DNA of 50,499 nt from Ruminococcus sp. (GTDB lineage Bacteria > Bacillota > Clostridia > Lachnospirales > Lachnospiraceae). The notes beneath the pieces were generated by a model that had not been told where the DNA came from, ran no database searches, and worked only from the letters and a program-made list of their open reading frames with translations. The position numbers were made by a program, and so were the translations under genes. Shown in pieces: positions 31,039 through 50,499 of this stretch. The DNA lies in NCBI GenBank assembly GCA_023663085.1, contig JAMPIB010000022.1, positions 1 to 50,499 on the forward strand, written 5' to 3'. Numbering within the stretch: the stretch's first letter is position 1; every line of letters starts with the position of its first letter.

Positions 31039-31048
31039 GTAAGGAAAG

Positions 31049-31195
31049 CAGGGGAACAGAGAAAAAAGTTTCTGCCTCAAGGCACGCTCTCGCTCCGTGA
31101 AAAATCGCAACAGTGCTAAGCTCGTGAAGAACCTTGCTAACCACTGGCGTTTTTCAAGGGCCTTTCAGCAGAATCTTTTTTTCTCTGTTCCCCTG
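31049..31195. repeat. 147-bp imperfect fold-back element / bidirectional terminator
   Basis: The outer arm CAGGGGAACAGAGAAAAAAG (31049-31068) is complementary to 31175-31195 with one extra T, and the pairing continues with TTCTGC (31070-31075) to GCAGAA (31168-31173). Inside, TGAAAAATCGC (31098-31108) pairs with GCGTTTTTCA (31147-31156) and CAGTG (31111-31115) with CACTG (31142-31146). A/T runs on both outer arms suit termination from either side of this convergent gene pair. The size also fits a MITE-like element. Confidence 0.75.
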
Positions 31196-31210
31196 TTTTG
31201 CGGTGTATTT

Positions 31211-32584
31211 CTAACGTTCCTCCATCGGAACATAAGTACGGTCTTGACAGATCGGCTTATAGGCCGGACGGATGATCTTACCGTTGTTGGCAAGTTCTTC
31301 CATTCTGTGTGCGCTCCATCCGGCGATCCTGGCGATGGCAAAGATCGGCGTATAGAGTTCTTTCGGCAGATTCAGCATACTGTAAACGAAACCGGAGTAA
31401 AAGTCTACGTTGATGCTGACGCCCTTATAAATCTGACGCTCTTTGGAAATGACTTCGGGAGCCAGACGTTCTACGAGAGAGTAGAGCGCAAACTCTTCCT
31501 GTAATCCTTTTTCTTCCGACAATTTTTCCACGAAAGATTTAAAGATGACAGCCCTCGGATCGGATTTGGAATATACGGCATGGCCGACACCGTAGATCAG
31601 TCCGGCGTGGTCGAAGGCGTCTTTATGCAGCAGTTTGGCCAGATAGTCGGCAACCATGCCTTCATTCGTCCAGTCGGAGACCTGCTGTTTCATATCGTCA
31701 AACATCTGTACGACTTTGATGTTGGCGCCGCCGTGCCTCGGCCCTTTCAGGGAACCGATCGCCGCCGCGATAACGGAATAGGTATCCGTCAGAGAGGAAG
31801 TGACAACATGGGTCGTAAAGGTAGAGTTGTTACCGCCGCCGTGCTCCATATGCAGGACAAGGGCAATATCCAGGATCTTGGCTTCTAACGGCGTATAGGC
31901 GCTGTCGGGGCGTAAGATATGTAAGATATTTTCCGCAGTGGACAGTTCCTGTTTCGGCTGGTGGATGAACAGACTCTTGCCATCATGATAGTGGCTGTAT
32001 GCCTGATAACCATAGATAGAAAGCAGAGGGAACAGACTGATGAGCTGTAAACACTGTCTGAGGACGTTGGGCAGAGAAGTATCATCCGCCCTGTCATCAT
32101 AGGAATACAGGGTCAGCACGCTCCTTGCCAGAGTGTTCATCATATCGTTACTGGGCGCTTTCATAATAATATCGCGCACGAAGCTGGTAGGAAGGGAACG
32201 ATAACCGGCTAAAAGCGATTTAAACATTTCCAGTTCCTTTGCATCCGGCAGTTTATCAAAAAGTAACAGGTAAGTAATTTCTTCATAGCCGAAGTTAGAG
32301 TCTTTGTCAAAACCATTAACGAGGTCCTTTACATCATATCCCCTGTAAAAAAGTCGTCCGTGGGTAGGTACCTGAACGCCGTCTACTATTTTATTCGCGC
32401 GCACATCGGAGATGTTCGTCAGTCCTGCCAGCACACCTTTGCCGTTTAAGTCGCGCAGTCCGCGCTTTACATCATATTTGGTGAACAATTCCGTATCAAT
32501 AACGCCTGCCTGTTTACTCATATTAGCAAGACGAAAAATTTCTGGTGTAATTTCCGAATAGCTGTTATGATCCATCATATACAT
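31211..32584 (-). CDS. gltA: Citrate synthase
   Basis: A 457-aa citrate synthase condensing oxaloacetate and acetyl-CoA. Catalytic histidines lie in HMEHGGGNNSTFT and GVGHAVYSKSDPR, with GSLKGPRHGGAN between and the aspartate in NVDFYSGFVY. It is somewhat longer than the usual 370-430 residues through an N-terminal extension, the form common in Lachnospiraceae. On the minus strand GGAGG lies 8 bases before the ATG. Transcribed divergently from deoC, with a hairpin near the 5' end of its leader. Confidence 0.96.
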   Translation of the reverse strand: MYMMDHNSYSEITPEIFRLANMSKQAGVIDTELFTKYDVKRGLRDLNGKGVLAGLTNISDVRANKIVDGVQVPTHGRLFYRGYDVKDLVNGFDKDSNFGYEEITYLLLFDKLPDAKELEMFKSLLAGYRSLPTSFVRDIIMKAPSNDMMNTLARSVLTLYSYDDRADDTSLPNVLRQCLQLISLFPLLSIYGYQAYSHYHDGKSLFIHQPKQELSTAENILHILRPDSAYTPLEAKILDIALVLHMEHGGGNNSTFTTHVVTSSLTDTYSVIAAAIGSLKGPRHGGANIKVVQMFDDMKQQVSDWTNEGMVADYLAKLLHKDAFDHAGLIYGVGHAVYSKSDPRAVIFKSFVEKLSEEKGLQEEFALYSLVERLAPEVISKERQIYKGVSINVDFYSGFVYSMLNLPKELYTPIFAIARIAGWSAHRMEELANNGKIIRPAYKPICQDRTYVPMEER

Positions 32585-40462: not shown

Positions 40463-41146
40463 ATGGTTTTTATGGCGGCTTTTTTTCCGGATTTACTGGA
40501 GGAATTTTTGACACCTTCTTTTCTGGATAAGGTGCGTGACAAATTTCATTATGGAGAGACGCAGGAAAAAGAGTTTCGGGAAGTAGCACGAAAGATGTAT
40601 CCCCTGATGCAAAAAGAAGCCTTCTGGGAAAGCGCAGAGTCAACGAATGTCTCCTGTACAGACTCCTATGCGGATGTCGTTATATCACTGGGGGCGGGTC
40701 TGGATTCTTTGCAGGAACAGTACAGCCGGCAGGGAATGTTATCGAAAAGCTATATGCTGGAAGTTCTGGCCGGAGAATTACTGATGCAGGCTTATGGCAC
40801 ATACAACCGCTATATCGGGCAGAATACGGATTGGCATGTGGCCCGATACCATTTTCCCGGCAGCGAGGATTCTTATCCGCTTCAGATGCTGCCGCATCTG
40901 CTGGAAAAGACAAACGGCCGTGTCACCTGCAACGAGGCTTTCTGTATGATTCCCAAAAAGAGCGTCGCTTTTGTGGCGGAATTGACGCAGGATAAAAATG
41001 TCCGTTGTGAAGGGATCTGCATCGGTTGCGGAAACGTACATTGCAGTAACCGGACGGCCGATGATTTTTCTACGAAGAAGCAGCTGGCGAAGATGACCGA
41101 TCTGCCGTTGACATATGGATACAGCCGGATCTTTGGGAAACTGTAG
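40463..41146 (+). CDS. Vitamin B12-dependent methionine synthase activation-domain-like protein
   Basis: A 227-aa protein. The second half resembles the MetH activation (AdoMet-binding) domain: RYHFPGSEDSYPLQMLPHLL, then FCMIPKKSVAFVAEL, ending with a Cys-rich motif CEGICIGCGNVHCSNR typical of stand-alone clostridial versions. Such proteins are thought to serve reactivation of corrinoid methyltransferases. No met or corrinoid gene is next to it here. The start is uncertain: AGAAAGG is one base from ATG 40463 and 10 from an in-frame ATG at 40472. It shares its immediate 16-base upstream sequence with deoC. Confidence 0.6.
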   Translation: MVFMAAFFPDLLEEFLTPSFLDKVRDKFHYGETQEKEFREVARKMYPLMQKEAFWESAESTNVSCTDSYADVVISLGAGLDSLQEQYSRQGMLSKSYMLEVLAGELLMQAYGTYNRYIGQNTDWHVARYHFPGSEDSYPLQMLPHLLEKTNGRVTCNEAFCMIPKKSVAFVAELTQDKNVRCEGICIGCGNVHCSNRTADDFSTKKQLAKMTDLPLTYGYSRIFGKL

Positions 41147-41153
41147 GGAAGAA

Positions 41154-41221
41154 AGTATTCTTTTTGAGGATGCATATTCCAAAGATGAGGGGAACAAATT
41201 CCCCATTGCATCAAGAATGCT
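41154..41221 (+). other. Three-tier stem-loop after the activation-domain gene
   Basis: AGTATTCTT (41154-41162) pairs with AAGAATGCT (41213-41221), GATGCA (41169-41174) with TGCATC (41207-41212), and GGGGAA (41189-41194) with TTCCCC (41199-41204). All three tiers are collinear in one long hairpin. No T-tract follows, so it may be a structured RNA end or the edge of an inserted element. Confidence 0.65.
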
Positions 41222-41245
41222 AATAGGGGGATTTTGAAAAAATGG

Positions 41246-41274
41246 TTGACGGAAATGCTGGTAAATGCTAAGAT
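41246..41274 (+). promoter_or_regulatory. Promoter of the antitoxin RNA
   Basis: TTGACG (41246-41251), 17-base spacer ending TGC, TAAGAT (41269-41274). Good -35 with extended -10. The predicted start is near 41281, leading to a short RNA that ends in the terminator at 41331-41374. Confidence 0.7.
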
Positions 41275-41280
41275 ATTTTA

Positions 41281-41374
41281 TAGGAAAAGGTGCTACCGTA
41301 AAGCAACGGTTCGCCTCCGTTAAGTGTAAATCAAAAAAGCAACCTAACTTTGGTCGGAGCGGTTGCTTTTTTGA
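41281..41374 (+). ncRNA. Antisense antitoxin RNA of a type I toxin-antitoxin locus
   Basis: A predicted RNA of about 92 bases runs from the promoter at 41246-41274 to the bidirectional terminator. It contains the hairpin AACGG/CCGTT (41305-41319). Its 5' end repeats, in the same orientation on the plus strand, a segment of the toxin leader: AAAAGG then GCTACC-GT at 41285-41299, compared with AAAAGG (41559-41564) and GCTACCCGT (41571-41579). Since the toxin mRNA is read from the other strand, these direct repeats make the two RNAs complementary. Convergent transcription into one terminator plus separated direct repeats is the layout known from the Fst/par family. The 3' ends also overlap through the terminator. 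No coding potential is seen. Confidence 0.7.
41331..41374. terminator. Bidirectional terminator shared by toxin mRNA and antitoxin RNA
   Basis: TCAAAAAAGCAACC (41331-41344) is perfectly complementary to GGTTGCTTTTTTGA (41361-41374), with a 16-base loop. Runs of six A and six T on the two flanks make it work in both directions. It contains the 3' codons of the toxin. Confidence 0.9.
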
Positions 41375-41475
41375 TGTCTTTCATTTTTTTTGGCCTGCCG
41401 GATACTGATCACCGTTACGATGATGCTGATAATCGTCACTACAATACCAGCAAACTCCAAAATTATTCCGAACAT
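41344..41475 (-). CDS. Type I toxin, 43-aa holin-like membrane peptide
   Basis: ATG at 41475-41473, TAG at 41346-41344 on the minus strand. The peptide begins MFGIILEFAGIVV, has one long Ile/Val-rich transmembrane helix (about 3-25) and a polar, basic tail (RQAKKNERHQKS and onward). The tail is encoded by the left part and loop of the bidirectional terminator, a hallmark of Fst/TxpA-type toxins. It has no good Shine-Dalgarno of its own; instead a ten-codon leader ORF with AAGGAGGGG overlaps its start by one base (TGATG). The family assignment rests on architecture, not on a sequence match. Overproduction of such peptides normally damages the membrane. Confidence 0.75.
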   Translation of the reverse strand: MFGIILEFAGIVVTIISIIVTVISIRQAKKNERHQKSNRSDQS

Positions 41476-41507
41476 CAATAGTGCCTGCCTTTCCCTTTAT
41501 TTTCCAT
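41475..41507 (-). CDS. Ten-codon leader ORF coupled to the toxin
   Basis: Minus-strand ATG at 41507-41505, coding MENKGKGRHY, stop TGA at 41477-41475. AAGGAGGGG lies at 41522-41514, 6 bases before the ATG. The last base of its stop codon is the first base of the toxin ATG, so ribosomes finishing the leader can restart on the toxin. The arrangement is similar in logic to mok-hok coupling. Confidence 0.55.
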   Translation of the reverse strand: MENKGKGRHY

Positions 41508-41598
41508 ATGTATCCCCTCCTTCGGTACTGGAAGCTCTCAAAATGTACTCATTCTGGCAAAAGGCGAACCGCTACCCGTTTTGGTAACACCCATCTAT

Positions 41599-41626
41599 AT
41601 TGTATCATAGTAACAAAGTTTTACAA
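41599..41626 (-). promoter_or_regulatory. Promoter of the toxin mRNA
   Basis: Minus strand: TTGTAA (41626-41621), 16-base spacer ending TGA, TACAAT (41604-41599). Extended -10. Predicted start near 41592 gives a leader of about 85 bases before the leader ORF, containing the segment complementary to the antitoxin RNA. Confidence 0.68.
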
Positions 41627-41666
41627 GATGTGGAAACAAATAATCTGCCATAAAGACTTACCCGAC

Positions 41667-41967
41667 TTACCTACTTCCTTTCTTTTTCCTTGATTTGTAG
41701 ACATTAAACTGGTTCTTACACCTCTGACGGCAAAATTCCTTTTTATAGTGCAATCTGGTAAGCTGGGGAGATGCCATCGAAAGCAGAAATGCCTCGCCGG
41801 TACAGATCGTGGGTATCTTTATCAATCAAATCATAATGAATAAAATATATATCCCATTTGAAATGAGGATTAGTAATTAGACCCTGACAAAAAAGGAATT
41901 GTCTGAATGTACAGGTATTTTTAAGAACAGCAGATGTAAGGAGATGCGGTAGGAGATTGAGGAACAA
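41667..41967 (-). pseudogene. Frameshifted remnant with a zinc-finger-like end
   Basis: On the minus strand one frame runs from about 41967 to a stop at 41743 (ending ISPAYQIAL). In the next frame the reading continues as KKEFCRQRCKNQFNVYKSRKKK and stops at 41667. The CxxxC plus basic stretch looks like the C-terminal zinc finger of a phage or conjugative-element protein. The two pieces together suggest one gene broken by a frameshift. The family is unknown, and the call is tentative. Confidence 0.3.
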
Positions 41968-41983
41968 TGTCTAGATTTTCCAT

Positions 41984-42205
41984 ATGAAAAGGAGGGTGCC
42001 CTATATCGTGAAGAAATACGGATTTGATTCTGTACAGGCATTCTACAAGGTATTTAATACTGTCAGAAGAGAATATCTCAATTATAAAGCGACTTGTGCG
42101 ATATATGAAAAAACTTATGGTGGCAGGGTAGCGGATATCACGAGCATTAGGGAAAGGCTACAGCAGAAAGGACAGGAAGTGAAAGAAAGAGAGGCGTGCA
42201 GCTAG
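41984..42205 (+). pseudogene. Short mobilisation-protein-like fragment
   Basis: A 73-residue frame reading VKKYGFDSVQAFYKVFNTVRREYLNYK, then EKTYGGRVADITSIRERLQQKG. The composition and the KKYGF-SVQ-FYK pattern recall the C-terminal part of MobA/MobL-type relaxases from Lachnospiraceae elements. It is far too short for a relaxase, and the AAGGAGG near its ATG (41989-41995) lies inside the frame, so this is probably the remaining 3' end of a deleted gene. A real small gene starting at GTG 42008 cannot be excluded. Confidence 0.35.
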
Positions 42206-42245
42206 CAATTGCTATCTATTTTTAGAAGTTGTTAATGTAAAAAAC

Positions 42246-42291
42246 ACAAGATGCAACAGACATTCTGTTATTGTTTCTTATCGTATCTTGT
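42246..42291. repeat. Nested inverted repeats before the recombinase gene (candidate site)
   Basis: ACAAGAT (42246-42252) with ATCTTGT (42285-42291), and inside it AACAGA (42255-42260) with TCTGTT (42264-42269). Located 32 bases before the recombinase start, a place where resolvases often bind. There is no T-run. It may be a recombinase-binding or control site. Confidence 0.35.
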
Positions 42292-42322
42292 ATCTAGTTA
42301 AAAAATGGAGGTTGAAAAGGTT

Positions 42323-42940
42323 ATGGCAAATGAAACAATTATTCTCGGATATATGAGAGTCTCTTCTCGAGATCAGAATGAGGATAGACAAAGGATTGCA
42401 TTGAATGAAATGGGAGTGCCGGAAAGCAATATTTATGTTGATAAGAAATCTGGCAAGGACTTTGAAAGAAAACAGTATAAACGAATGTTAAGAAGACTTA
42501 AGCCGGGTATGGTTCTTTATATCAAATCTATTGACAGACTTGGTAGGAATTATCAGGAACTCATGGAGCAGTGGCGAGTTATCACGAAGGAAAAAGGTGC
42601 AGACATTGTTGTGATTGACATGCCGATTCTGGATACGAGGAGAGAAAAAAATCTGCTCGGTACATTTATTTCGGATTTGGTATTAACATTATTAAGCTAT
42701 GTCAGTGAAAATGAAAGAATGTGCATCAAACAACGACAGGCTGAAGGGATTGCGGCGGCAAAGGCAAAAGGCGTGAAGTTCGGAAGACCTGAAAAACCCC
42801 TCCCAGATAATTTCAATGAGCATTGTCAGATGTGCAAGGAAGGAAAAATATCTGTGTTAAAAGCTTCAAAAGAATGTGGAATGCCAGAAAGCACGTTTAG
42901 ACAGAAGATGAAGAAAACACTGGAAACAAACGAATGGTAA
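42323..42940 (+). CDS. Serine site-specific recombinase (resolvase/invertase family)
   Basis: A 205-aa small serine recombinase. The catalytic N-terminal domain (about 1-145) has the nucleophile in GYMRVSSRDQNEDRQ, the conserved SIDRLGRNY motif, and the E helix (SENERMCIKQRQAEGIAAAKAKG). The C-terminal helix-turn-helix (about 160-200) ends in MPESTFRQKM. Size and order match DNA invertases and resolvases, not large integrases. The ATG at 42323 is favoured (GGAGGT 10 bases upstream); an ATG at 42305 overlaps that site. A perfect inverted repeat begins 19 bases after its stop, a typical layout for an invertase next to its switch. Confidence 0.93.
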   Translation: MANETIILGYMRVSSRDQNEDRQRIALNEMGVPESNIYVDKKSGKDFERKQYKRMLRRLKPGMVLYIKSIDRLGRNYQELMEQWRVITKEKGADIVVIDMPILDTRREKNLLGTFISDLVLTLLSYVSENERMCIKQRQAEGIAAAKAKGVKFGRPEKPLPDNFNEHCQMCKEGKISVLKASKECGMPESTFRQKMKKTLETNEW

Positions 42941-42958
42941 GCGAAGAAATTAGATTGG

Positions 42959-43099
42959 CAAAGTATACTTTTATGCGGCATGATTTAGCTACATTTCATA
43001 CAATAATAATATATACAAAAAACAATGTAAAATCAAGAGTTTTTGTATGGATTCATGAAACTTTTTGCAATAATGCAGTACTCGCATAAAAGTATACTT
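42959..43099. repeat. Candidate invertible segment: 18-bp perfect inverted repeats flanking 105 bp
   Basis: AAAGTATACTTTTATGCG (42959-42976) and its exact reverse complement (43082-43099) flank 105 bases. Each copy contains the dyad AAAGTATACTTT, as expected for a serine-recombinase crossover site with two half-sites around a central two-base core. The segment starts 19 bases after the recombinase gene, carries an outward promoter (43007-43035, minus strand) and lies just upstream of the fucosyltransferase cluster. Alternatives are a MITE or a mere hairpin; no target-site duplication is visible. Confidence 0.7.
43007..43035 (-). promoter_or_regulatory. Promoter inside the candidate invertible segment
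   Basis: Minus strand: TTGATT (43035-43030), 17-base spacer, TATATT (43012-43007). In the present orientation it fires leftward, toward the 3' end of the recombinase gene. Inverted, it would point at the fucosyltransferase gene at 43371. Confidence 0.6.
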
Positions 43100-43370
43100 T
43101 TTGACAGTAAAATCATAAACTCGGTATTGGATTTGAGCAACGGGTACATCAGATAGAGTATTGGCTTCAAGAAAGGATATTCCTGTTAATAATTGACGTA
43201 TTAATTTGTATACATGTATTTGTGTTGATAGGCATTTATGTAAAAGTCTGACATATTTTTTCAAAATTGGGAGGAAAGAAAAAATAGCGGTATGGACAGA
43301 AATCGGAAAGTAGAGTGTTAGAGAGTTTCTGAAGCCGTTTGTTATAGTAGATGGAGGATAAACCGAGGTA
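43100..43370 (+). other. Non-coding stretch before the fucosyltransferase, with a weak promoter
   Basis: About 270 AT-rich bases without a convincing gene. The only forward promoter candidate is TTGACG (43193-43198), 16 bases, TGTATT (43215-43220): good -35, poor -10. Two purine-rich stretches resemble ribosome-binding sites, and a six-codon frame at 43351 (MEDKPR) ends in TAATG overlapping the next start codon. Confidence 0.4.
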
Positions 43371-44222
43371 ATGATATATGTTTGTATAACACATGGACTT
43401 GGAAATCAATTTTTTCAATTTGCGATGGGATATTCACTTTCAAAGAGAGAAGGTCAATCTCTCGTATTGGATACTTCTTGGTTCAAGTATAATTTGGACA
43501 GAAATTTTATGTTGAATGGAACATATGCTACAGATATTTGTATGGTTGATGAGGATACAAGTTTATTTAATACGAAAGACAAGCAGGCGTTTTATTCTAC
43601 AGACAACCAGAGAAATGGGAATGGATTTATAACGGATATGAGTAATAATATATCGAAAGATGAGTTTCATGGGCATTATGACAATTATTATTTAAGGGGA
43701 TATTTTCAGTCACCTGTATTTTTTGATAATTATCGTACAGAATTGCTTTCTTTGTTTAAGGTAAAACATATTAAGCATCCTAAATTTAGCGCTTATATGA
43801 GAAGTATTAATGAAAAAAATAGTGTGGCAGTGCATATTAGGAGAGGAGATTATGTTGCAGAATCAGTTTTACATCCATTTGGGAATCACTATTTACTTGG
43901 TATGGAATATTACAGAGTGGCATTAGATTATATGAGTCATATGATTGAGAATCCATATTATTTTGTGTTTACAGACAGTAAGGAGTGGGTTGAAAGAAGT
44001 ATTGAGTTACCGTGTAATAGTGAAGTGGTTGCTATATCTGATGAGAATGCGGATTTATTGGAGTTTGAGTTGATGAAAAATTGTAAAAATGCTATCACAG
44101 CCAATAGCACTTTTAGTTGGTGGGCTGCTTGGCTTAATGATAATAAAAAAAAGATAATAATTACTCCTCAAAAAAGATATGGTCCTGAGAATATGATTCC
44201 TTTAGAATGGGTGAAACTTTAA
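43371..44222 (+). CDS. GT11-family alpha-1,2-fucosyltransferase
   Basis: A 283-aa glycosyltransferase of family GT11. The hallmark donor-binding motif VAVHIRRGDYVAES lies at about 152-165 (HIRRGDYV 155-162), and the N-terminal GLGNQFFQFAMGYSLS and C-terminal NSTFSWWAAWLN and PEKRYGP-like boxes match bacterial enzymes that transfer fucose from GDP-fucose to galactose. No GDP-fucose synthesis genes are in the window. It is the first gene of the AT-rich cluster and probably decorates a surface glycan. The Shine-Dalgarno is poor (GAGG two bases from ATG), which may reflect coupling to the short leader frame. Confidence 0.92.
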   Translation: MIYVCITHGLGNQFFQFAMGYSLSKREGQSLVLDTSWFKYNLDRNFMLNGTYATDICMVDEDTSLFNTKDKQAFYSTDNQRNGNGFITDMSNNISKDEFHGHYDNYYLRGYFQSPVFFDNYRTELLSLFKVKHIKHPKFSAYMRSINEKNSVAVHIRRGDYVAESVLHPFGNHYLLGMEYYRVALDYMSHMIENPYYFVFTDSKEWVERSIELPCNSEVVAISDENADLLEFELMKNCKNAITANSTFSWWAAWLNDNKKKIIITPQKRYGPENMIPLEWVKL

Positions 44223-44331: not shown

Positions 44332-45492
44332 ATGATAGTTTATTCATGGTTCAAAAATGCTTTGGCTGGCTTAGAAAGCGAGTTAAATACGCTTGTTATG
44401 GATTTTGGTGTGGATGAAGAAAATGGGTTAATTAAGATAGGGGGAGAAACGATAAAAGGCGGAATTGGAAAAACTGTATGGTATATTCCAGTATACAATA
44501 AGAAGATAAGTTCCGTTACAGGATTGCAGATGGGTAAAGGATTAAAAATTGTAAAACTTCCTGTATACAATGATTTTAGGGATGAATATTTCAGATTGAT
44601 AGAAGAAATGAATATCCAAAAGATCATGTTTGTGAATGGATTAGCTAAGGATATTTATGATATTGTGCTTGTTAAAAATCTAGCAGAGAATCAAACACAG
44701 TGGCTTGGTGAGGAATATTTTCATCCACAAGGTAGCGTATATCTAGCTACAGTTGTAGACAACGTAGTAAATGATGGATGGGACGACTTTTATGCAACGA
44801 TAGACAGTGATGGTAATATTTTTGGAGAACAAATTGCAGATTATATAAATAAGTGCCATAAACTTAAGATTGAGCCATATGATTTTACACATAATAATTT
44901 TTTTAATGTGCATGGCAATATATTTGTAATTGATTTTCATAAGTGGAAAAGAACCTGCTTAATAAAAGAACCTATGTATCCTGAATATATTGAAATTGAG
45001 ATTAACGTTAATATAGGAGATCAACAATCAATTATTCCAGATGAATTGTTTTATAATATTCTCTTAGAAGCATCACAGTTAGGTATTAAGTACATTGTTC
45101 CTATTATGCATGGTGATACATTAAGAATTGAGAATTATTCCAAAAGTTTAAAAATTATTAAAAAAGTCGCTCCGAAAATTAAGATTGTGGAAAGAATACA
45201 AGATATATATATTAGTCAAGAAAATATTTTTGATTTATCTCGATGTTATGATTATGAACTATGTGATATTGCAGTACGAGGTATGACAGTATTATCAGAT
45301 GGAAAGTGTTACCCTTGTAGAGCATATTTAGATGAAGATAATAATATGGGAAATATTAAAGATGGTGGTATTTTAGCAGTTTGGAATTCTAATGAATATA
45401 AATGGTTTAGATATTTGCACAAAAAAAGCAAATTACTTAATAAGAGTTGTAGGAGATGTCGGAATTGTATTCCAGTGAGGGAGTATCTATGA
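44332..45492 (+). CDS. Radical-SAM-like protein with SPASM domain but no CX3CX2C motif
   Basis: A 386-aa protein of two parts. Residues 1-205 match nothing I know. From about 215 it follows the barrel of SPASM-type radical SAM enzymes: YIEIEINVN, where an intact family member (for example the one at 47718) has IETTNRCNAACIMCP, then ELFYNILLEASQLGIKYIVPIMHGD. The three cluster cysteines are absent, replaced by NVNIGDQQSIIP. The C-terminal SPASM region (about 310-386) keeps its cysteines: LCDIAVRGM, DGKCYPCRAYLD, NMGNIKDGG and CRRCRNC. It may bind an auxiliary Fe-S cluster without classical radical chemistry. Its last four bases overlap the next start. Confidence 0.75.
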   Translation: MIVYSWFKNALAGLESELNTLVMDFGVDEENGLIKIGGETIKGGIGKTVWYIPVYNKKISSVTGLQMGKGLKIVKLPVYNDFRDEYFRLIEEMNIQKIMFVNGLAKDIYDIVLVKNLAENQTQWLGEEYFHPQGSVYLATVVDNVVNDGWDDFYATIDSDGNIFGEQIADYINKCHKLKIEPYDFTHNNFFNVHGNIFVIDFHKWKRTCLIKEPMYPEYIEIEINVNIGDQQSIIPDELFYNILLEASQLGIKYIVPIMHGDTLRIENYSKSLKIIKKVAPKIKIVERIQDIYISQENIFDLSRCYDYELCDIAVRGMTVLSDGKCYPCRAYLDEDNNMGNIKDGGILAVWNSNEYKWFRYLHKKSKLLNKSCRRCRNCIPVREYL

Positions 45493-46769
45493 TATATATA
45501 TGTTACATTTTAGTGGCACTTTCCATAATTAAAATGATAGGTTATGTGAGAAACTTTTATGTTGTTGGAGTTTTTTTACGCAAAGCAAAAAAGAAAAAAT
45601 ATACAATGCCAAACAATAGGAAAATCTTATTATTAATTCCGGTTTTAAGAGAGCAAAATGTTATCTCTCAGACATTGAATCATTTTATGAATATGAATAC
45701 AGGTGGATTAGAACTATTTATTGTTGTTGCAGGAACAGTTCGAGAGAGTAGAACTAAGGGGATAAGTACAAAAGAGGTCGTAAATACATGGATTAAAGAA
45801 AGAAAATTTCCCGAGAATATCAAAGTTATCTATTCTGAGGCTGATGAAGTAAATGGTGACAGGGCTACACAGCTTAATTATGCTGTTAATTTGCATTTTG
45901 AGCATCATCCAAATAGTAAATTAGATTATATAGGAGTTTATGACGCGGATTCATTGCCATCTTCAGAGACATTGATGGAAGTAGTGCAAATATTCAATGA
46001 TAATCCACAAATTTCAGCCTGCCAGCAACCTGTAGAGTTTATTACTGCGGCAAACAGGATGGCATCTCAAAATAAGAATCCACTGCTGATTGGTAATGCG
46101 ATATATCAAACGATGTGGACAGTTATCAGAGAACTGCCCTCATGGATTGGATTAGGGCATAGTAAAAAAGATAAACAATATAAGAAAAATGTGTATCTTA
46201 TAGGACATGGTGAATTTCTAAGATACAAAACATACACAGATTTTCAATTTCCAGAATTTGAAATAACCGATGGAATACAGCTCGGTTATAGGATGGGAAT
46301 GTCTAATCGTAAAATTATGGCTTTATCCGAATTTTGCCAAGATGATGTTCCACAAAATATAAAATCTTTAATACAACAGCATAAACGATGGTACGGTGGA
46401 TGTATGAAATTATATAGTGCATATAAATGGACACAAAATAATATGGGTATAAAATCTAAGTGGCAGATGATAGATGGATACTGGAGTCAAGCCTGTTGGG
46501 CATGGACAACCCCTTTATATATACTTGCACTTATAATAAGTATGTGTGAATGTAGTGTGGTATTTTATGTATTATTGGTTCTCATTATTATATATTCATA
46601 TATATTCCCAATGCTTTCGATTTACCTAATAGGAAAAAATGCTAAGATACGATTGAGAGACTGGCTTATGATACCATTTGCAATAGCTATAAAATCAATA
46701 GGACCGAATTTATATTTCTTAGAAAAAATATTTAGTGGAGATGTAAAGTATGCAAAAGTTGAACGATAG
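45489..46769 (+). CDS. Membrane GT2-family glycosyltransferase
   Basis: A 426-aa processive-type family 2 glycosyltransferase. An N-terminal TM helix (about 1-20) is followed by the cytoplasmic catalytic domain with LLLIPVLREQ, the DAD metal motif in GVYDADSLP, the acceptor-side acidic EITDGIQLG, and the QQHKRWYGG form of the Q/RxxRW motif. The C-terminal third has about three to four TM helices. The layout resembles enzymes that build and export polysaccharides or add sugars to lipid carriers. The start at 45489 overlaps the previous stop (ATGA); the frame extends to 45456 inside the upstream gene. Confidence 0.88.
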   Translation: MIYICYILVALSIIKMIGYVRNFYVVGVFLRKAKKKKYTMPNNRKILLLIPVLREQNVISQTLNHFMNMNTGGLELFIVVAGTVRESRTKGISTKEVVNTWIKERKFPENIKVIYSEADEVNGDRATQLNYAVNLHFEHHPNSKLDYIGVYDADSLPSSETLMEVVQIFNDNPQISACQQPVEFITAANRMASQNKNPLLIGNAIYQTMWTVIRELPSWIGLGHSKKDKQYKKNVYLIGHGEFLRYKTYTDFQFPEFEITDGIQLGYRMGMSNRKIMALSEFCQDDVPQNIKSLIQQHKRWYGGCMKLYSAYKWTQNNMGIKSKWQMIDGYWSQACWAWTTPLYILALIISMCECSVVFYVLLVLIIIYSYIFPMLSIYLIGKNAKIRLRDWLMIPFAIAIKSIGPNLYFLEKIFSGDVKYAKVER

Positions 46770-47703
46770 GTTTGAAAATGCAAATTCGAAAATTGATTAT
46801 TTACGTGTTATATTGACTCATGCCTGTAATCTGAATTGCCAAGGGTGTCATGGAGAGGGACAGAGTGAACATGAATTAAAATCTAATGAAGATGTGATTG
46901 AAGCTATAAAATTATGCATCAATGCTGGTACAAAAAAAGTTAAATTTATGGGTGGTGAACCGACATTACGTCTTGGAATTGACCTGATTGTATCCGCAGT
47001 TAAAGATGTGGAGCCCAATGTTGAGTTATCTATGATAAGTAATGGATTAGGAGCATTTGATTTGTATAAATTATTATTTGAAAAGGGACTAAGCAGATTA
47101 AATATTTCTGTACATGGCTGGAATGAAGAGTACTTTATTAAAAATACCGGATCAAACAAACAAATTTCAAATAAGTTTAAAAAAAACTTACTGATGCTCC
47201 TTGAACATAATATGGTTACTAAGCTGAATTATGTTATAAAGCGAGGGATTAATGAAAATGACCTTTTTGATATGATTGATGGTATGGGAAAGTATAAGAA
47301 TACAGTAAAAATTGATATTCTTAATTACTTATATGGACCGGATAATACAAATGAAAAAACGGTACAGTATAGTATGGATGAAATCAAAGCTCTTTTGGAT
47401 TGCAAATATGGAATAAAAGAACAAAATACAATTCATAATAATTATAGTCTTGATTCGACACAGTTAATTTTAAATAATGAGGTTAAAGTAAATTTAAAGA
47501 CCTCACAATTAAGGAAACAAAACTTCTTAAATGCATGTAAAGAATGTAATTGTAGAGATTATTGTATCGAAGGAATAAGTGCTATTCGGCTGAGAACAGA
47601 TTTGGCAATACAACCCTGTTTGTTAAGAGATGATAATTTATTCTATATTACAAAAAAGGGATATATTTTAGAAGAGTTAAAGGAATATATAAATACACTA
47701 TAA
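46750..47703 (+). CDS. MoaA-like radical SAM protein
   Basis: A 317-aa radical SAM enzyme. The AdoMet-cluster motif is CNLNCQGC (Cys26, Cys30, Cys33), followed by the GGEPTLR glycine motif and ISVHGWNEEYF. The C-terminal part has a second cysteine group (CKECNCRDYCIEG) and an IRLRTDLAIQPCLL stretch like the end of MoaA, which binds a second 4Fe-4S cluster. There are no other molybdopterin genes, so the substrate is probably not GTP. It overlaps the GT2 gene by 20 bases, with GGAG 9-10 bases before its ATG. A role in modifying a sugar or peptide in this cluster is inference. Confidence 0.88.
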   Translation: MQKLNDRFENANSKIDYLRVILTHACNLNCQGCHGEGQSEHELKSNEDVIEAIKLCINAGTKKVKFMGGEPTLRLGIDLIVSAVKDVEPNVELSMISNGLGAFDLYKLLFEKGLSRLNISVHGWNEEYFIKNTGSNKQISNKFKKNLLMLLEHNMVTKLNYVIKRGINENDLFDMIDGMGKYKNTVKIDILNYLYGPDNTNEKTVQYSMDEIKALLDCKYGIKEQNTIHNNYSLDSTQLILNNEVKVNLKTSQLRKQNFLNACKECNCRDYCIEGISAIRLRTDLAIQPCLLRDDNLFYITKKGYILEELKEYINTL

Positions 47704-47717
47704 TGGAGGTGGTTAAA

Positions 47718-48593
47718 GTGAAAATACCGGAAGTTATATACATAGAAACAACCAACAGATGTAATGCAGCATGCATAATGTGCCCTCATAAATTGTTAAA
47801 AAGACCCATTACAGATATGACGGAGAATATTTATTCAAAAGTTATTAATGATCTTAGTAAAGTGAATTTAAAAAATACACAACTTTTTATTCATAAAGAA
47901 GGTGAACCTCTATGTGATAAAAATATTATAAGAAGAATATTGTTTGCTAAAGAGAATACCAATGCTAAGATTGGAATGAGTACAAATGCGATGTTATTAG
48001 ATGAAAATATGGCACAGAATATTTTAAATAGCGGACTTGATACCATTTATTTTAGTATAGATGGTGTATCTGCAGAAACGTATAATAGAATAAGAGTTAA
48101 TTGTAATTATTATGTTGTAAAAAAAAATATTACCTATTTTTTAAAATTGCGAGAAAGATTATCCAGCAAGATCAGAGTTATTATGCAGATGATTATTGAT
48201 GCAGATAATATACATGAAAAAGAGAATTTTATAAAATTATGGGATAAATATGATGTTGAATTTTATTTAAAAAAAATGCACTGTTATCTTGATGGGGGAA
48301 AGTCAAGCTTTGATAAAATAGATACATCTATACAAAAGAGTGTATGTAATGACCCCTTTCGTTTAATTACAGTTTTGTGCGATGGTAATGTTGGATGCTG
48401 TTGTTGGGATTATAATAATGAATATTGTCTTGGAAATGTAATGGAGAATGATTTAATTGAATTATATAATGGTGAAAAAATAAATTATATGAGACAGTTG
48501 CAGCGGGAAAAGGAGTGTTACAATTTAGCACCATGTAATAGATGTGGACGAATTTTTTCAAATGACCGTATTTCAGATCCAGAAGCGAATTGA
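47718..48593 (+). CDS. SPASM-type radical SAM protein
   Basis: A 291-aa radical SAM enzyme with an intact CX3CX2C motif at Cys15, Cys19 and Cys22 (CNAACIMCP). It also has KEGEPLCDKN, STNAMLL and FSIDGVSAETYNRIR, and a SPASM region toward the end (CDGNVGCCCWDYNNE, then CLGNVMENDLIELYN and APCNRCGR). GGAGGTG (47705-47711) lies 6 bases before GTG 47718, so GTG is the preferred start; the ATG at 47703 overlaps that site. It is the closest intact relative in the window of the degenerate protein at 44332. Related enzymes modify peptides, sugars or aminoglycosides. Confidence 0.88.
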   Translation: MKIPEVIYIETTNRCNAACIMCPHKLLKRPITDMTENIYSKVINDLSKVNLKNTQLFIHKEGEPLCDKNIIRRILFAKENTNAKIGMSTNAMLLDENMAQNILNSGLDTIYFSIDGVSAETYNRIRVNCNYYVVKKNITYFLKLRERLSSKIRVIMQMIIDADNIHEKENFIKLWDKYDVEFYLKKMHCYLDGGKSSFDKIDTSIQKSVCNDPFRLITVLCDGNVGCCCWDYNNEYCLGNVMENDLIELYNGEKINYMRQLQREKECYNLAPCNRCGRIFSNDRISDPEAN

Positions 48594-48629
48594 TTTATAA
48601 TAGAAGAACCGAAAATATGAGGTGTTAAT

Positions 48630-49199
48630 GTGATTATTAACCTTACAGGAGCAAAAGGTGTTGGAAAAACATTTCTTGCACATAGATTGAAATCAGAGAG
48701 AAATAAAATTTCTATTATTGAGGAATTTGTATACAGAGACACGGGATTTGACGTTAGGACAAAATATGGTTTTTTGCAAAATGAAAAAATATATTGCGAA
48801 GAGAAAATGAATTATTTTAATGAAGCAAATAATAAATCAGAAGTGTCAGTATTTGTTCGCGGAATGGAAGATTTGCTCTTCTATATATCCAGTTATCCAT
48901 CTATAAATAATTTTAATTGGAAAATTGATTCTGATTTTCAGGATATTTTAAAACAGATAGATAATTGCAAAAGTGATTTGATTATTTATCTTGATGCATG
49001 TAAAGAAGTACTTGAAGCACGATGGGAAAGTGATTCAGTAAAAAAGAGAGTAATAGAAGATACATGGTATGAAAAATGGTATATGCCACATAAAAAATTT
49101 ATACAGAATTATAAAAATACAATAGTTCTTGATACTTCTTATTTAACTAAGCAAGATGTATTTGAAAGAGTAAATGAAATAATAGATAATAGCATTTAA
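48630..49199 (+). CDS. P-loop nucleotide/sugar kinase-like protein
   Basis: A 189-aa P-loop protein starting at GTG. Walker A is GAKGVGKT (7-14). There is an Arg-containing loop VRGMEDLL near 75, a hydrophobic strand ending in LIIYLDACKEVLEARW (Walker-B-like), and a lid-like SVKKRVIEDTWYEKWY. Size and motifs fit deoxynucleoside or monophosphate kinase-type folds. The substrate is unknown. Same direction and 36 bases after the radical SAM gene, so part of the cluster. Confidence 0.75.
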   Translation: MIINLTGAKGVGKTFLAHRLKSERNKISIIEEFVYRDTGFDVRTKYGFLQNEKIYCEEKMNYFNEANNKSEVSVFVRGMEDLLFYISSYPSINNFNWKIDSDFQDILKQIDNCKSDLIIYLDACKEVLEARWESDSVKKRVIEDTWYEKWYMPHKKFIQNYKNTIVLDTSYLTKQDVFERVNEIIDNSI

Positions 49200-49244
49200 G
49201 AAAAATTTTTCTATATTTGTTAAAGAAAATAAAGTAAAAGGTTT

Positions 49245-50201
49245 ATGATTATGAAGAAAATAATTGTATATGATTCGGGACTGTTATATGGAAAATCAAA
49301 AGAAGAGATAGGAAGAAAATTTGAAGTTATAGCAGTAACAAGCGATAATAAAGATGATAGAAAAAACTATGATAATTATATATTAAAGACAGAGATAAAA
49401 AATGTTGTGTGGGACAATATTCTCATTTGTGATAGTCAAGATGTGGAAAAGGTAAATTTTCTTATTAACGTTTTAGAGATTCCAAAAGATAAAATATTAC
49501 TGAGACATGTCGAATTTAGTAAAAGAGGATTTTTCTATTCTCAAAAAAATGAAGATGCTATTATGTTTTTGATTCTTAAATTGATAGGAATAGATATTAA
49601 TAATTTTAAGGAGCTATTTTATTTAGATTTAGGTACAAATCATCCAATCAAATTAAATAACACATACGGTTTATACAGAGCAGGTGCAAGAGGGGTTTTA
49701 GTTGAACCTAATCGTGATTTATGGAATATTATTCAAGTGGCTAGACCGCAGGATACTTTGATACGAAAAGCTGTTTCATCAAAACATGGAAAAACCACTT
49801 TCTATTCTATGAAAGCATCCACATTATCTACATTGTCTATAGATAAATTAGACAATGATTTTTGTAAGCAGTATGATTATTTTACGATTACTGAAACCTA
49901 TGACGTAGATACAATTACGATGAATGAATTACTGAAAGGAATTGGAAAGGTGCCAGATATACTTTCCATTGATATTGAAGGATATGATTTGGAAGTTCTT
50001 AGTGACATTGATTATTGTACAGTACGTCCAAAGATAATAATTTCTGAACTGGGAGCTTGGGGTTTAAAACAACAAGAACGAGAAAATATTATAGAATTAT
50101 TGTCATCAAACAATTATATGCTTATAACTGATAATCATACTAACGGGATATTTGTAGATGGAAAGTATGAAAAGTATATTTCAGCATATAAAATATTCTA
50201 A
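49245..50201 (+). CDS. FkbM-family methyltransferase
   Basis: A 318-aa protein. Residues 1-85 form a separate Rossmann-like or unknown domain (IIVYDSGLLYGKSKEE). From about 93 the FkbM methyltransferase pattern begins: YSQKNEDAIMFLIL, FYLDLGTNHPIKLNNTYG (AdoMet loop), GARGVLVEPNRDL, then RPQDTLIRKAVSS and PDILSIDIEGYDLEVL. FkbM enzymes O-methylate sugars or hydroxy groups in glycans and natural products. It is the last clear gene of the AT-rich cluster, 45 bases after the kinase gene. Probable role: methylating the product of the glycosyltransferases (inferred). Confidence 0.9.
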   Translation: MIMKKIIVYDSGLLYGKSKEEIGRKFEVIAVTSDNKDDRKNYDNYILKTEIKNVVWDNILICDSQDVEKVNFLINVLEIPKDKILLRHVEFSKRGFFYSQKNEDAIMFLILKLIGIDINNFKELFYLDLGTNHPIKLNNTYGLYRAGARGVLVEPNRDLWNIIQVARPQDTLIRKAVSSKHGKTTFYSMKASTLSTLSIDKLDNDFCKQYDYFTITETYDVDTITMNELLKGIGKVPDILSIDIEGYDLEVLSDIDYCTVRPKIIISELGAWGLKQQERENIIELLSSNNYMLITDNHTNGIFVDGKYEKYISAYKIF

Positions 50202-50467: not shown

Positions 50468-50499
50468 ATGTTACAGATCAGACCTGTTTCAGATTTAAG
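50468..50499 (+). CDS. Start of a Phd/YefM-type antitoxin gene (partial)
   Basis: Only the first ten codons are inside the window: MLQIRPVSDL, followed by an incomplete codon. This opening is typical of Phd/YefM-family type II antitoxins (usually IRPxSDLRN). AAGGAGTG (50453-50460) lies 7 bases before the ATG. A RelE- or Doc-type toxin would be expected downstream, outside the window. Confidence 0.6.
   Translation, partial: MLQIRPVSDL

Follow-up and report, generated by a model that had tools for sequence, protein, structure and literature searches.

The 50,499-nucleotide contig of Ruminococcus sp. analyzed here, which we call the window, is highly likely to carry a self-contained invertible-promoter switch, with a downstream fucosyltransferase/radical-SAM cluster as its presumed target; this reading is built on comparison of sequences. 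In the sequenced state the switch is very probably OFF for the cluster. In the mechanism that we propose, a small serine recombinase would bind two sites in opposite orientation (the AAAGTATACTTT dyads), which lie directly beyond the stop codon of its own gene, and would invert the segment between them. In the OFF form the promoter would be directed leftward, at the 3' end of the recombinase gene. An inversion would move it to about 43024-43052 and turn it rightward, and transcription would then cross a 270-bp leader into the fucosyltransferase/radical-SAM/FkbM cluster. We place the module in a large Lachnospiraceae/Clostridia family whose recombinases are each paired with a single adjacent promoter and with exchangeable cargo. 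We infer that the recombinase is the acting enzyme, that the segment flips in the window strain, that the promoter is active and that the cluster is its target. The features of the locus are as follows.

41890..42196, plus strand: relaxase-like gene remnant, from the C-terminal part (54-63% identical in tblastn to residues 459-561 in the protein from genome G039)
42305..42940, plus strand: small serine recombinase of the DNA invertase/resolvase type, 211 aa (PF00239, 99.2 bits)
42960..42977, plus strand: left arm (recombination site), AAAGTATACTTTTATGCG, matching the right arm perfectly
42978..43082, no strand assigned: candidate invertible segment, 105 bp (homologous segment lies the opposite way in loci L110 and L111)
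43008..43036, minus strand: promoter match TTGATT-17-TATATT, pointing left, away from the cluster (sequence match)
43083..43100, minus strand: right recombination site arm, perfect 18-nt inverted repeat of the left arm
43101..43370, plus strand: leader between switch and first cluster gene, 270 bp, without terminator or Rfam match
43319-43348, in the leader: weak static promoter-like site TAGAGA-18-TATAGT with TG (sequence match)
43371..44222, plus strand: GT11 gene, presumed first target (PF01531, 91.8 bits)
44332..50201, plus strand: remaining genes of the presumed operon, AT-rich (end of contig at 50499)

The recombinase and its adjacent sites

An earlier reading made from the letters alone (the sequence-only reading) had named a small serine recombinase gene. 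For the frame at 42305-42940 the profile search bore this out, with a score for the Resolvase N-terminal catalytic domain far above the PF00239 cut-off of 23.3. The best solved relatives by sequence were Tn552 bin3/Sin and gamma-delta resolvase. In pairwise alignment with the Tn552 bin3 (Sin-type) chain the stretches RVSS and SIDRLGRN were identical; these are presumably where the catalytic serine and arginine residues sit. The draft genome (3.44 Mb in 95 contigs, 90.7% complete, the window being the whole of contig C14) holds four PF00239 matches, of which the window recombinase alone lies in a short frame (212 codons; the others have 368-608). Its frame is unbroken, and the four closest homologues (L110, L111, L112 and L113) share 90-93% identity with it. 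A viral or plasmid source was rejected because the one relative found in the viral_contigs search had 58% identity, all plasmid matches among the 5000 best-scoring records stayed below 60% and the best match in a phage collection, in an unannotated faecal record, reached 72%. A search of viral_contigs for the pattern of paired arms also found no match.

The stop codon is followed, after the 19 bp that the sequence-only reading had counted, by the left arm of a perfect 18-bp inverted repeat enclosing 105 nt. The repeat is real, and only its coordinates had been placed one base too low. Inside each arm, as read directly, lies the perfect 12-nt palindrome AAAGTATACTTT with GTATAC at its centre, just where a dyad had been claimed. 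Dinucleotide shuffling of 42700-43400 reached a perfect inverted repeat of at least 18 nt in 0/1000 rounds, the longest being 16 nt. The draft genome contains two exact copies of the arm, both at the window locus. When up to three mismatches were allowed, a search that would overlook more diverged targets, the arm matched at 3 forward and 5 reverse places genome-wide, compared with 8 and 9 for a control pattern; these eight places comprise the two exact arms and six sites with exactly three mismatches. A repeat scattered as a MITE had been named as one finding that would speak against a switch. We rejected the MITE reading, as exact copies are confined to the window locus and near-matches fall below the control count.

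It is most improbable that the repeats serve as a site of the resolvase type or as a transposon end, or form an RNA hairpin, and play no part in inversion. Such an origin would suit the Sin/bin3 and gamma-delta resolvase type of the closest solved relatives, but the sites are inverted rather than direct, homologous segments occur in both orientations (see below), the arms do not recur elsewhere in the genome and no terminator-like site was found in 42300-43500. A search of Rfam over 41100-43500 likewise gave no match.

The leftward promoter TTGATT-17-TATATT proposed for the flanked DNA is indeed present on the minus strand, running from 43036 to 43008. It overlaps a second match, TTTACA-17-TATTAT (10/12, 43003-43031), which points left too. 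Promoter matches by themselves are weak evidence: in 1.2 kb, counting both strands, there were 9 against 4.8 +/- 1.9 in shuffles, a modest excess. The block TTGATTTTACA is unchanged in the window, L110, L111 and L113 when the segments are oriented alike, and 17 bp past TTGATT these four copies carry TATATT, TATACT or TAAACT.

The only other perfectly complementary pair of 14-mers spaced 20-300 bp apart in the window is unrelated and lies at 31045/31177. It falls in a 155-bp unit (31045-31199) whose ends are 23-nt inverted repeats (96%) enclosing 109 bp, adjoining the end of gene 31211-32584 (citrate synthase by eye). The unit looks MITE- or REP-like because a second pair of equal spacing is found at G000:C70:1519-1665.

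Both orientations occur among close homologues

A DNA search of 98 genomes returned, in the same-genus genome G039, a match to the recombinase end on one strand and a match to the segment on the other. Four homologues have 90-93% recombinase identity: L110 (the same place as in G039, and also identical with L048), L111 (Lachnospiraceae bacterium 10-1), L112 (the same place as in G017) and L113. In G017/L112 other DNA begins right past the stop codon and the downstream site is lost. The recombinase part was matched at DNA level in 69 of 397 family genomes (own included), and no further homologue of the segment besides the window's own was found in these 397 genomes.

Inner segments were aligned directly and after inversion. 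Window and L113 scored 53.0 directly and 10.5 inverted, whereas the window gave 9.0 and 39.0 with L110 and 14.0 and 39.0 with L111; the corresponding values were 11.5 and 47.5 for L113 with L110, 14.0 and 50.0 for L113 with L111, and 99.0 and 19.0 for L110 with L111. Maxima of 500 shuffles per pair ranged from 10.5 to 17.0, those for the window against L110 and L111 being 17.0 and 16.5. Window and L113 therefore agree in the orientation of the segment, which is reversed in L110 and L111; the promoter faces the recombinase in the first two and the next gene in the last two. Segment identity is 70-74% across the two orientation or host groups and 95% between L110 and L111, so that the four homologues amount to about three independent copies. 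The sequence-only reading had proposed looking for both orientations in reads or related genomes; run on related genomes, this check found two of the four comparable homologues each way. Both orientations, as expected of an inverton in nature, are thus seen between related genomes, here and in the pair L066/L075 described below.

The surroundings of these copies may in part derive from a mobile element. A relaxase-like gene stands at full length directly before the recombinase in L110 and L111. It is reduced to fragments in L113 and the window, to 57 residues in the more distant L078, and is absent from L112; among the five closest copies (window included), two thus have the full gene directly upstream and two a fragment. 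Upstream of the L111 switch are also a large serine recombinase and a ParM-like gene (ParM by eye), and the relaxase-like gene of L111 has a weak NCBIfam assignment (MobQ, 26.1 bits against a cut-off of 200). According to PMC11892184, one inverton group is enriched near relaxase genes, there with tyrosine-type recombinases. The window stretch 41189-41742, which follows the gene at 40463 and precedes the relaxase remnant, is repeated DNA; parts of it are found again in relatives and, within the same genome, at C88 and C66.

The decay of the neighbouring relaxase-like gene, together with the loss of the downstream site in G017/L112, would agree with a frozen switch, whose sites and promoter are relics of a once-invertible module and whose window copy no longer flips. 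We regard this as very unlikely: the recombinase frame is intact and as close to its homologues as given above, and the arms are perfect 18-mers, a perfection that a relic would be expected to lose.

A family of recombinase-linked segments

A match to the recombinase at E <= 1e-20 was found in 40 of 98 genomes (own included), and from GTDB genomes the best 80 of 210 relatives were kept, as 79 loci. After tblastn hits spanning less than about 150 residues and frames running off their contig were dropped, 146 hits remained, representing 137 distinct genes, 128 of them with at least 300 bp downstream. Just past the stop codon, an inverted repeat with a score of at least 12 was detected for 63 of these 128 genes compared with 7 of 2105 stretches taken at random from the same loci, and with a score of at least 15 for 48 of 128 compared with 1 of 2105. 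The remaining 65 genes had no inverted repeat at score 12, and at least two of the 63 repeats (L070 and L098) are close-set hairpins, unlike switch pairs. Judged by such repeats, the switch architecture is present in about half of the related genes, and related recombinase genes with their own adjacent repeat are common in Lachnospiraceae and other Clostridia.

Orientation was scored on a set of 63 segments that differs from the one just described, being defined by a score of at least 12 and an inner part of 60-230 bp at any downstream length; L114 (score 9) was included manually, and L115 entered twice (two gene copies on one contig). The left arm, searched for in the first 70 bp only, started at most 30 bp from the stop codon in 61 of the 63 (median 15 bp). 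By a promoter score that is coarse, and in assemblies that each display one form only, the best promoter was OFF (facing the recombinase) in 45 segments, ON (facing the cargo) in 14 and ambiguous in 4. Random same-strand segments gave 349 OFF, 359 ON and 386 ambiguous, and shuffled segments 364, 394 and 502. The mean best promoter score was 7.70 in family segments and 6.86 in shuffles. When recombinases were grouped at 85% identity, 23 of 36 groups were all OFF, 4 all ON, 6 mixed and 3 ambiguous; at 75% identity, 13 of 17 groups were all OFF, 1 was all ON, 2 were mixed and 1 was ambiguous.

A segment of this kind could also be two-faced, serving as promoter one way and, the other way, as an intrinsic terminator against read-through from the recombinase. 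The example that fits is L113, where the strand opposite the promoter carries a hairpin of 10.7 kcal/mol with a T run behind it; weaker hairpins occur in L048 (L110) and L111, and over 59 oriented segments the opposite strand scores 3.44 against 2.17 in shuffles. The promoter strand scores higher still, however, at 5.14, and the window reaches just 1.9. The reading of a terminator in one orientation was therefore rejected, and the chance that the two-faced design holds is slight in the extreme.

Loci L050, L066, L075, L093, L136 and others repeat the window's plan of recombinase, arm (usually within 30 bp), promoter match and second arm. They share with it an arm that in many is centred on GTRTAC, an inner part of 87-213 bp and usually cargo on the same strand, whereas their cargo is unlike that of the window (GT2, MBOAT, flagellin, MmeI- and EcoRI-type methylases, dynamin and others) and the window leader is unusually long by comparison. 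We scanned with Pfam 30 first same-strand genes, chosen by hand from the 63 segments with near-duplicates mostly omitted. Eighteen were above the cut-off, 3 below it and 9 without match. Six encode envelope or glycan enzymes (two GT2, an MBOAT, an acyltransferase, a sugar transferase and a LicD) and four a DNA methylase or restriction-methylase (two MmeI-type, two EcoRI-type), the others being a flagellin, a helicase, a dynamin, a radical SAM protein, two TnpB, an M48 peptidase and a zinc-ribbon protein. In L053, L136, L157 and L171 the recombinase-promoter switch stands directly before an EcoRI- or MmeI-type DNA methylase gene, which makes these loci candidates for phase-variable restriction-modification through promoter inversion.

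Further cases of inversion were found in this wider family. In two same-genus genomes, the inner segments of L066 (G031:C7) and L075 (G009:C49) are identical at 150 of 153 positions when inverted and at 89 of 185 when aligned directly. Their recombinase genes are 80% identical, the 150 bp past the right arm 72.5%, and the first 120 residues of the next genes alike by eye (GT2 in L066), whereas upstream of the recombinase the agreement over 300 bp drops to 51%, near chance. The segment is thus 98% identical though recombinase and right flank are far less so, as if related switches had swapped segments. L050 and L122 show an inverted match of 71% over 146 bp. On the contig of L115, a different family member, each end of one and the same segment adjoins a copy of the left flank. 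This flank shares 95% identity with that of L114, and its two copies are 94% identical to each other. As the shared site is only 9 bp, this arrangement is hard to obtain unless both orientations were in the sample. L115 therefore suggests mixed orientations in one sample, though a chimera of two strains is probably involved.

The downstream cluster and comparison with known switches

The cluster start at 43371 stands as proposed and belongs to the GT11 gene, a family label that we take to denote an alpha-1,2-fucosyltransferase. The genes of 44332..50201 encode a SPASM protein, a GT2, a radical SAM protein, a radical SAM/SPASM protein, a P-loop protein (AAA_28 just below the cut-off) and an FkbM methyltransferase. 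Their G+C content (28-31% at 44-50 kb, compared with 43-49% in the first 42 kb) suggests acquisition. For the radical-SAM protein at 47703, relatives in 5 of 97 other genomes (E <= 1e-30) have just 28-30% identity, and for the SPASM protein at 44332 a sample of 392 genomes of the order contained no match at E <= 1e-20 outside its own genome. The latter (44332-45492) has a SPASM domain without a radical SAM domain detectable in Pfam.

We infer control of the cluster by the switch from their common direction, their adjacency and the lack of a terminator between them. As no terminator was found between recombinase and cluster, read-through could also keep the cluster partly on in the OFF state. 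The distance to the first same-strand gene is 270 bp in the window against a family median of 32 bp over 59 loci (59 of 61 rows, the two L115 rows having no same-strand gene), and is at least 270 bp in 6 of the 59, window included. The cargo of the three close homologues with downstream sequence (L110, L111 and L113) differs from that of the window. The promoter switch of the sequence-only reading was accordingly upheld as a recombinase-linked invertible promoter with homologous segments both ways, and weakened, by this gap and the other cargo of homologues, as a controller of the cluster.

The same observations lend weight to a view that we consider somewhat unlikely, namely that the switch is real and the cluster not its target, the original cargo having been lost with the decay of a relaxase-bearing element and the AT-rich cluster having ended up downstream of the switch with a fixed promoter of its own. 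The relaxase-like gene is cut to a remnant, a weak site of the extended -10 type lies at 43319-43348 in the long leader, and the SPASM gene lacks relatives as stated. Conversely, the cluster genes run in the same direction with no called gene and no terminator found in between, and envelope and glycan genes are frequent as first cargo in the family.

Among gut bacteria, Bacteroides provides the best-known cases of phase variation through promoter inversion. In Bacteroides fragilis the serine recombinase Mpi inverts promoter segments between inverted repeats in front of surface glycan genes and acts in trans on many promoters. The window resembles these capsule promoters in its serine-type recombinase, short inverted repeats, small promoter segment and glycan-related presumed targets, and differs in that its exact arms occur at one locus only. 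The likeness to Mpi drawn by the sequence-only reading holds for the logic; membership in the Mpi family (NF009949, master DNA invertase) was rejected on a score of 49.3 bits against an equivalog cut-off of 272. The Hin/hix flagellar switch of Salmonella likewise has a serine recombinase and a promoter between inverted sites. However, Hin is encoded within the DNA that it inverts and depends on a Fis-bound enhancer, whereas the window recombinase gene lies outside a segment of 105 bp. RecV is a tyrosine recombinase; the serine recombinase of the window appears to serve a single site pair, the one next to it. In PMC5903667, RecV serves some, not all, of the Cdi invertible regions of Clostridioides difficile, which control adjacent genes (cwpV and flagellar); these share with the window short invertible regions next to their genes and a clostridial genome.

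A literature search, conducted largely outside subscription journals and on partly visible texts, found no account of this serine-recombinase family and no switch before a fucosyltransferase/radical-SAM cluster. Novelty of kind had nevertheless been overstated, since such genes with repeats are common in Clostridia, which account for 14 of 15 inversion-positive Firmicutes samples (PMC5903667), and Clostridia-like strains have a median of 3 invertons per genome (PMC11892184). The switch is very probably real and is ordinary in kind, its chief use being as one member of a large, testable family. That family offers a small enzyme-plus-site pair with an apparent directional bias in assemblies (45 OFF, 14 ON, 4 ambiguous), and if a compact switch of one enzyme and one promoter is common in Lachnospiraceae before glycan, flagellar and restriction-modification genes, surface and defence traits may differ between cells of one clone in many Clostridia.

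A broader picture, speculative and in our judgement distinctly unlikely, would be a modular and horizontally moving Lachnospiraceae 'cargo switch'. It would consist of a small serine invertase and a private 3' promoter joined to unrelated gene sets, with one subclade on relaxase-bearing elements, and would be OFF at rest. As the OFF promoter would fire into the 3' end of the invertase gene, antisense transcription could dampen the invertase and set the switching bias. The gene sets, if this were true, would be surface glycans, flagellin, restriction-modification and possible defence.

The cargo of L111 (8879-16609) and L113 (1886-9365) includes HerA/FtsK-like ATPases and, in L111, DnaK-like proteins (DnaK by eye). 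PADLOC gave weak matches to HerA and SspH in the cargo of these two loci, for which a defence role is possible.
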